A DNA stretch of 64,000 nt from Viola odorata (taxonomy: Eukaryota; Streptophyta; Magnoliopsida; Malpighiales; Violaceae). Made by a program: the position numbers and the translations under genes. The stretch covers positions 48,706,327 to 48,770,326 of the forward strand of contig OY829539.1 in NCBI GenBank assembly GCA_963691705.1. Direction: 5' to 3'. The notes beneath the pieces were generated by a model. It saw nothing but the letters and a program-made list of their open reading frames with translations, had not been told where the DNA came from and made no database searches. Numbering within the stretch: the stretch's first letter is position 1; every line of letters begins with the position of its first letter. Positions 43,901 to 46,900 of the stretch are shown piece by piece.

Positions 43901-46900
43901 TGCCATGATTATGTTATTCTCTCTTCTTTTTTCTTGCTTTTAGGTATTTGCTAGAACAGTAATTTGCCGGGATTTGGATGTGGCTACAAGAGTTGCTCGA
44001 ATAGATGGTCTGGACTGCATAACTATGGAAGGTTGGGGTGGAAGTTTTCCTTGGTATTTTTCATGATCTTGGTAGTTTGGGGCAGGGTGCCTTACTAAGC
44101 TAATACTCACCAGGTGACCAAGTTAGCAAGAAAGGTGGGATGACGGGGGGATTCTATGATCATCGTCGCTCAAAGTTGAAGTTCATGAGTATGATTGTGC
44201 AGAACACAAAATCCATTCAGATGAAGGAAGTGGAACTGGAAGAAGTTAGAAAAACCCTTCAAGATATCCTTTTATTTTAGTCTTTTTTGCTTTCTGAATA
44301 AGTGTGATGTTTCTTTAAAGTGGTATGGGCCGTACATCTGAAGAAATGTTTTTCGTACCATCTGTGGAAAAAATATTCTTCAGACCCCTAATGGTTTCTA
44401 AAATATTCGATTTTTACCTATTCTAAATATATTTTTCTTGCTTAATTGATCATACATATAGACCAAAAAATTACTGAGCTTGTTACGGAGCAGCAAAAAA
44501 TTGATGCCAAGGGGTCTCATGACAAATCAGAGTTGGAACAGCTTAAGCAGGATATAGCTAATGCTAATAAACAGAAGGAATTTATTTCTCAGTCCCTTGG
44601 AAATAAGGTACTTTAAGGTCTTTTTAACTCTTTTGTTGCCAATGGGTGATTATAACTTTCATTGGAGTTGGTCGTGCCACCTGATGTTGTTTTTGTTGCT
44701 ACCACTGTGCTCATGGTATCCTATTTGTAGGAAAAATCACTTGCAGATGTGAGGATGCACATAGAGCAGCTTAAAAGTAGTATGGATGTGAAACAAACTG
44801 AGATGGGCACAGAGCTCATTGATCACTTAACACCACAGGAAAAGGAGCTGCTGTCACGACTGAACCCTGAAATAGCAGAACTTAAAGAGGATCTTATTTC
44901 CTGTAGGACAGATCGGATTGAGGTTAAACTCAACTTTGTTTCGGTTTTCATATGATATGCTTGATGGTTTGTGCTATTGTTTTACAAACGTACATTTCAA
45001 ACTATAGACTGAAACAAGAAAAGCGGAGCTCGAGGCTAATCTTACAACTAATCTGAAACGGCGAAAGCAAGAGTTGGAAGCCATAGTATCTACTGCAGAA
45101 ACTGATGCATTGCCCAGTGAAGCTGAATTGAAGAAACAGGAACTGAAAGAGGCTGAGTTATTAGTTGAAGATATGACGCAGGAGCTTGAAAGTAACCTTA
45201 AAGTTGTTTATAGAATCCAACTTTTAAATTTAGCTGAAGCTCAAGTTCCTTTTTTTAGCTAAGTCTATTTTTCTTAGGTGTCACCAAGAGCATTGATGAA
45301 AAAACAGAGAAACTGAAGAGGATCAAAGATGAAAAGATAGAACTAAAGGTTTGAACTGTTAGTTAGTGATTAGGGATTGGGTGGTGCTTATAGCATTATC
45401 AATAACACTTCACTTCTCTAGAATTTGTTGCTGGGCTTAATAGATAACTTGTGATGCCAGAAAAGAGAAGATGAGTATGAGCTAACGCTTCAGGAAGAAG
45501 CCAAAGCATTGGAGCAGCTATTGAGTGACAGGAGTCTTTATCTCGCCAAACAAGAGGAATACTCAAACAAAATAAGGGAATTAGGTCCACTATCATCAGA
45601 TGCTTTTGAAACGTATGATTTCCCTTTGATCTTTGAATTCTGATTACTTTGTCACACAACAAATGGGTTCTGTCTGAACCATCCTTCAGTTATTGAGTGT
45701 GTCCAATACATAGCTAGATCTGTCATGTCTTGCTATCAACGTAGACATTAAGTTTTTCATTACTTTTTCAAGCCTACTTTAGTTCCTAGGAGTTTTGTTT
45801 AGGCCCCAAAAGGTTCTTATTGTTGTTGTTGTTTTCTTCTTTCTTGTGACACTTTATATATGTCTTGTTTGTCTCAGCATGTGTTTGGTTAAGTCATGGG
45901 AGATGATTTAGTCAGACATGTCCTTCTTGGGTATTATTGGTTTCGATTCTAATACCCTCTTATGGGAATGATTAGGTATAAACGAAGGAGCATCAAAGAG
46001 CTGCATAAAATGCTTCACAGGTGCAATGAGCAACTACAACAGTTCAGCCATGTAAACAAGAAAGCACTAGATCAGTATGTGAATTTCACAGAGCAACGAG
46101 AGGAACTGCAAAAAAGGCAAGCTGAACTTGATGAAGGTGATGAGGTACCTACCAGCTTCTATCTTTCAGAAATCTCATATGGGTCTCACTGTTGTTACAG
46201 GAGCTTACAATTTAAACTATCTTTACTTTGATGAGTTTGTGCAGAAAATCAAAGAACTCATATCTGCTCTAGATCAGAGGAAGGATGAATCCATAGAGCG
46301 TACTTTCAAAGGTGTTGCTCGGCACTTTCGTGAAGTGTTCTCTGAACTGGTGCAAGGTGGTCATGGCCATCTGGTTATGATGAAGAAAAAGGTTTGTCTG
46401 AATAATATTTTAAGATAGTCACAATCACCTTTGGTATAATTATTATCTTGAAGTTGGGTAGTTAGTTTATGATCAGATATACATGTGTCCTGTGCACGAT
46501 CTGTGTTAATGATAATTGTCTGAAACCAATATTTTTTGGGGCAAAAGTCATTTAAGCACCCAACTTTATAGGGGTTGCCCAATTTTGCCCCCAACTCTTA
46601 CCTAATCCTAAAATGGCACCCAACTTTTGCCCTCCGTTAATCCCTTTGCCCCCAACTTTCTCTCCGTTACCCAATTTAGCACTCAGGCCCTTAACTTTCT
46701 ACCAAGATCTTACTAATGCCGTCTATTTTCTTTTCTTTGGACGAAAATGGACACGTGGCATAAAAATACAACCACTCATCTTCTCTCCTTCTCCCCTCCT
46801 TAACTTCGCACAATTCCACCACCACCCAGCAAGGAAACAAAAAATTCAACCTATTTTAGTTAGTGTTTAAATTTCTCTACACACACAGGTATATCTCATT

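Follow-up and report, generated by a model that had tools for sequence, protein, structure and literature searches.

A minor-type intron in human SMC3 has been described before, as have genes carrying more than one such intron. In Roifman syndrome (RNU4ATAC), the minor intron of human SMC3 is retained at 31.9% in affected versus 2.1% in unaffected individuals, and NMD of the resulting transcript is predicted (PMC4667643). A preprint also lists SMC3 in a table of U12-intron genes (PMC12637451). Human SMC3 is therefore like the plant SMC3 described here in having a minor-type intron (PMC4667643, PMC12637451). Several U12-type introns within one gene are known from sodium and calcium channel genes (PMC2831892), and in each of 21 genomes that were tested, introns of this type are clustered by gene (PMC7367187). 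In Arabidopsis, 26% of the U12-type introns are AT-AC (PMC7367187), and SMC3 is single-copy, with titan7 knockouts arresting early in seed development (PMC5440745). By title or opening of the abstract, none of the papers surveyed names plant SMC3 as a U12 gene, and an entry in a catalogue is likely. Similarly, the survey found no paper on AT2G27170 together with U12, nor on CSPG6 together with U12 (for the human intron number), and the main text of PMC4892727 mentions none of SMC3, At2g27170, TTN7 and TITAN.

Here, we describe a complete plant SMC3 gene inside a window of 64,000 nt of Viola odorata DNA, which is the whole stretch analysed. We consider it very probable, from sequence comparison, that this intact gene carries two U12-type introns, coding intron 18 (AT-AC) and coding intron 27 (GT-AG), and that both would be removed by the minor spliceosome; the efficiency of their removal may in turn limit the output of the gene. 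The coding region (37956..48391, plus strand, as are all features of the gene given below) comprises 28 coding exons and 27 introns, and the spliced model encodes 1203 amino acids with a stop codon solely at the end. This exon model was built from matches guided by an Arabidopsis SMC3 sequence, together with local junction fitting. The product contains the Pfam domains SMC_N and SMC_hinge, and its residues 1-1200 align to residues 1-1216 of the SMC3 chain 7w1m_B (930.5 bits, E 1.4e-278), which comes from human cohesin. Among solved-structure chains, full-length SMC3 chains score from 930 to 626 bits, against at most 195 for SMC2, 127 for SMC4 and 110 for SMC1A. Thus, as expected of an SMC3 orthologue, the product is full length, has the head domains and the hinge, and resembles SMC3 more closely than it does SMC1, SMC2 or SMC4; the gene looks intact. 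Its 27 introns include 24 GT-AG introns without U12-type signals, one GC-AG, one AT-AC and one GT-AG with U12-type signals. The GC-AG intron is coding intron 8 (39734-39813; junction ACAG|GCAAGTCATG).

Coding exon 18 (44114..44263; GDQVSKKGG...RKTLQ) ends in phase 1 and is followed by the AT-AC intron 18 (44264..44455), which is 192 nt long and interrupts codon 696. The earlier note had claimed precisely this intron in SMC3, and the identity of the gene, the junction, the ends, and the U12-type donor and branch site all hold. The U12-type consensus is RTATCCTTT for the donor and TTCCTTRAY for the branch site. The 5' splice site of intron 18, ATATCCTTTT (44264..44273), is preceded by an exon G, and its ATATCCTTT agrees with the donor consensus at 9/9 positions. 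The branch-site-like TTGCTTAAT (44438..44446) agrees at 8/9, with G replacing C at the third base, and its branch A lies 11 nt before the intron ends. The 3' splice site AC (44454..44455) is read in the sequence, and its C agrees with the junction codons of homologues. A T-rich stretch precedes the branch site, while only TGATCATAC separates it from the exon, with no polypyrimidine tract visible by inspection. Calling this a textbook U12 intron, as the earlier note did, is slightly generous in view of the branch-site mismatch. In its donor and its ends, as well as in the sequence and distance of its branch site, intron 18 fits the U12-type AT-AC introns of plants, from which that one mismatch alone sets it apart. 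Coding exon 19 (44456..44607; AT ATA GAC CAA..., IDQKITELV) resumes the frame, and removal of the intron produces CTT CAA G|AT ATA GAC, read as LQDIDQ, which resembles the LQVIDQQ, IQEVDQR and LQEIDQK of plant SMC3 homologues at this junction. Because ATAT flanks the junction on both sides, a cDNA by itself could fix the cut only to within 4 nt; just one of the possible placements has AT-AC or GT-AG ends.

The intron also keeps its position in other plants, as far as proteins can tell. From a donor-side set of 60 database proteins, 42 contain the exon-18 motif GGF[YH][DE], and in 34 of these the exon runs at the junction into [DN]IL (27 DIL, 7 NIL), which is what an unspliced x|ATATCC(T) predicts; the donor is thus conserved at the protein level. 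These counts are of related sequences and not of independent events, and they concern protein predictions rather than donor DNA. In the other eight, the protein is spliced through (five: P0001-P0004 and P0007), is joined elsewhere (two: P0005 and P0008) or ends before the junction (P0058), and none of them enters intron 18 at the junction with another reading. On the acceptor side, all 12 proteins that a pattern picked out as running from intron 18 into IDQ (KDQ in one) have Q or H, hence CAN, as the codon across the junction, and therefore the intron ends in C, with the preceding A not readable from protein. The named carriers among the 34 (Brassica cretica, Vitis vinifera, Marchantia paleacea, Cryptomeria japonica and Helianthus annuus) span liverwort and conifer to eudicots, which dates intron 18, on these protein readings, as old. 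Many of the homologue records look like predictions made on plant DNA that run unspliced through exon ends; no relative that would represent stray plant SMC3 DNA in viral contigs was found. Moreover, the named models of these five plants (P0022, P0023, P0046, P0047 and P0048) stop between 0 and 15 residues after [DN]IL, so that the AT-AC intron seems to mislead automatic gene prediction and to break SMC3 models.

A second U12-type intron, which the earlier note missed, is present near the end of the gene. Coding exon 27 (47767..47941) ends in DPQYRTAVG and is followed by coding intron 27 (47942..48200), which is 259 nt long, interrupts codon 1141 in phase 1 and is of the U12-type GT-AG subtype, and by the last coding exon (48201..48391, stop codon included), which starts ACATGATACGCC. 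The intron has both a U12-type donor and a U12-type branch site: the donor GTATCCTGTT is without G at +5, its GTATCCTGT is 8/9 to RTATCCTTT, and the branch site ATCCTTAAT is 8/9 to TTCCTTRAY. The intron ends in AG, and the branch A lies 13 nt from that end.

Motif counts were rejected as evidence by themselves. The window contains RTATCCTTT at 3 places, where shuffled sequence would give 2.24, and the branch motif TTNCTTAAY at 8 places, where it would give 11.32. Since neither motif by itself is commoner than chance, the evidence for intron 18 is that they coincide with the junction defined by homology. Among the 27 SMC3 introns, only 18 and 27 combine a donor of at least 8/9 with a branch site of at least 8/9. 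Of 10,800 mock GT-AG introns, cut from intron sequence after shuffling and given these ends, 39 reached at least 8/9 in the donor, 199 at least 8/9 in the branch site, and a single one both. In addition, when both strands of the 64 kb were scanned by motif only, with intron length set to 60-500 nt, 4 donors came out in 6 pairings. The donors of SMC3 introns 18 and 27 are two of the four, and each has a pairing that falls exactly on the protein-defined junction; in the remaining two, at 1487 and at 33138 (minus strand), the donor core is altered.

How intron 18 should be read can be judged from an enumeration of its possible junctions, with the last exon base at 44180-44439, the first base of the next exon at 44300-44559 and an intron of at least 50 nt. 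Junctions of any dinucleotides that keep the frame free of stops number 3769, and those with AT-AC, GT-AG, GC-AG, AT-AG or GT-AC ends were scored against four spliced plant homologues (P0001-P0004). The AT-AC junction 44264-44455 is the top scorer (240.75), so that accepted intron ends fall exactly where the protein requires the junction; another AT-AC and an AT-AG junction follow, both with 212.25. The GT-AC junctions were rejected on fit (best 191.5), and the enumeration found no GC-AG junction that keeps the frame. An ordinary GT-AG intron lying slightly displaced, with the AT-AC signals matching by chance, would agree with the chance frequency of the donor and branch motifs in the window. 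However, the best of the 27 frame-keeping GT-AG junctions reaches only 152.75 and deletes conserved residues, and [DN]IL stands exactly at the AT-AC junction in the 34 homologues described above. The GT-AG junctions were accordingly rejected on fit, we regard a displaced GT-AG intron as next to impossible, and the earlier claim that the AT-AC choice, and no GT-AG one, brings the frame into line with SMC3 is borne out. The U12-type donor could instead be paired with the AG at 44460-44461, forming an AT-AG intron of 198 nt. This junction is in frame, it is the AT-AG junction tied for second place, and AT-AG minor introns exist (PMC8280824). It would nevertheless delete two residues and turn LQDIDQ into LQDQ, whereas the spliced homologues retain VID, EVD or EID, and it would stretch the distance from branch site to intron end to 17 nt, against 11 for AT-AC. 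We find this pairing extremely improbable as the main junction, and it could be a minor alternative product. Finally, AT-AC ends alone do not fix the spliceosome, as intron 21 of SCN4A is a major-type AT-AC intron (PMC2831892), and intron 18 might belong to the same rare U2-type class, with the major spliceosome excising it. In sodium channel genes, however, AT-AC introns of U2 type have G at +5 (PMC2831892), where intron 18 has C within an unbroken donor motif, and a U12-type branch site at 11 nt, with so little between it and the exon, speaks in the same direction. A U2-type identity is very improbable, and we retain intron 18 as a U12-type AT-AC intron.

For intron 27, the corresponding question is whether it is an ordinary major-type GT-AG intron, as its counterpart apparently is in animals. 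Its ends are GT-AG. A short profile query gave 753 matches, of which the best 120 were counted, and all counts that follow refer to these best 120 of 753. In 48 of the 120, AG or SG follows the exon, with position and phase as in intron 27, and 42 of these 48 carry the exon EIDQALD. The commonest readings among the 48 are AGK (12), AGT (10) and AGM (8), equivalent to G|GTAAG, G|GTACG and G|GTATG, which suggests a GT donor of mostly major-type look; 5 of the 48 read GI, and P0280 and P0283 (GIH) are compatible with a U12-type donor. The EIDQALD group is probably animal, judging from its exon QALDPQFRKAV, as in Nematostella P0173, with few of the records named. In contrast, 55 of the 120 read [GA]SI[LHRQ] after exon 27, as A|GTATCC predicts, and of these 53 carry the exon EIDAALD and none EIDQALD. 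Among the remaining 17 of the 120, 6 continue into the next exon and 6 read ASK or GSK, with a major-type look. In the Viola odorata gene itself, a donor without G at +5 stands together with 8/9 agreement at both donor and branch site. A major-type identity for intron 27 is thus very improbable, and the U12-type reading is preferred. The animal-like proteins, unlike Viola odorata SMC3, mostly have a major-type donor reading at this position (best 120 of 753), and the intron likely forms a plant-animal pair of the same position and phase and of different spliceosome class, which would be useful for dating class switches. P0261 and P0272 read ASIH and ASIL at the junction, with an exon ending in AVA and not AVG, and from these two the U12-type donor of intron 27 may extend beyond the GSIL group.

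The machinery for such introns is encoded in the same genome. In 699 Mb and 26 contigs, U12 snRNA, which we took as the mark of a minor spliceosome, was found at two loci with 99.1 and 93.5 bits (Rfam cut-off 53), while 14 control genomes gave none; an Rfam search of the window itself gave no match. The GUAAGGAA stretch of U12 snRNA, which pairs with the branch site, is intact at both loci. Of the two loci, L001 and L002 (G000 C3 and C10), L002 has more broken pairs and the lower score (93.5 vs 99.1 bits).

We propose that the minor spliceosome (U11/U12, U4atac/U6atac) would remove introns 18 and 27. Retention of intron 18 stops the frame after LQDILLF (LQDILLF*), and retention of intron 27 places a stop after AVGSILFRY (AVGSILFRY*), with the loss of the last 62 residues. 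Since the frame closes within a few residues of the exon when one or the other intron is retained, the efficiency of minor splicing would be expected to limit SMC3 output. Making SMC3 protein probably depends on the minor spliceosome; this dependence is plausible because of the stops on retention, the U12 snRNA genes, and the published finding that human SMC3 retains its minor intron in individuals with mutated U4atac. Two U12-type introns would couple a core function of chromosomes to splicing machinery that is scarce, and they would offer a simple readout for plant minor-spliceosome mutants. It is tempting to go further and see the plant cohesin supply as being under a conserved and selected double checkpoint of the minor spliceosome, acting via both SMC3 introns. 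This remains doubtful in our view. If true, both introns would be kept in plants with an early stop on retention, while the position of intron 27 is major-type in most animals; taken with the human SMC3 minor intron, the link of chromosome cohesion to minor splicing would then be a selected trait and not an accident.

Intron 18 is an old intron and a good example of a class already known. Added to this are the second U12-type intron, the donor readings shared among homologues, the probable difference in class from animals at intron 27 and the apparent disturbance of gene models by intron 18. As in the channel genes with multiple U12-type introns, SMC3 here has two, of different subtypes (AT-AC and GT-AG).

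The rest of the window contains other features downstream of SMC3. The regions 51442-52877 and 56300-57441 look by eye like fragments of a plant retroelement (RT- and RNase-H-like); Pfam gave no match on the three pieces tested from them. A glycosyl hydrolase family 3 gene has exons at 52873-55581 on the plus strand, and a stretch encoding 20 residues is present twice in this gene, at 53464-53523 and 53615-53674. Finally, an open frame of 597 codons (58702-60495) encodes a hAT-like transposase domain.
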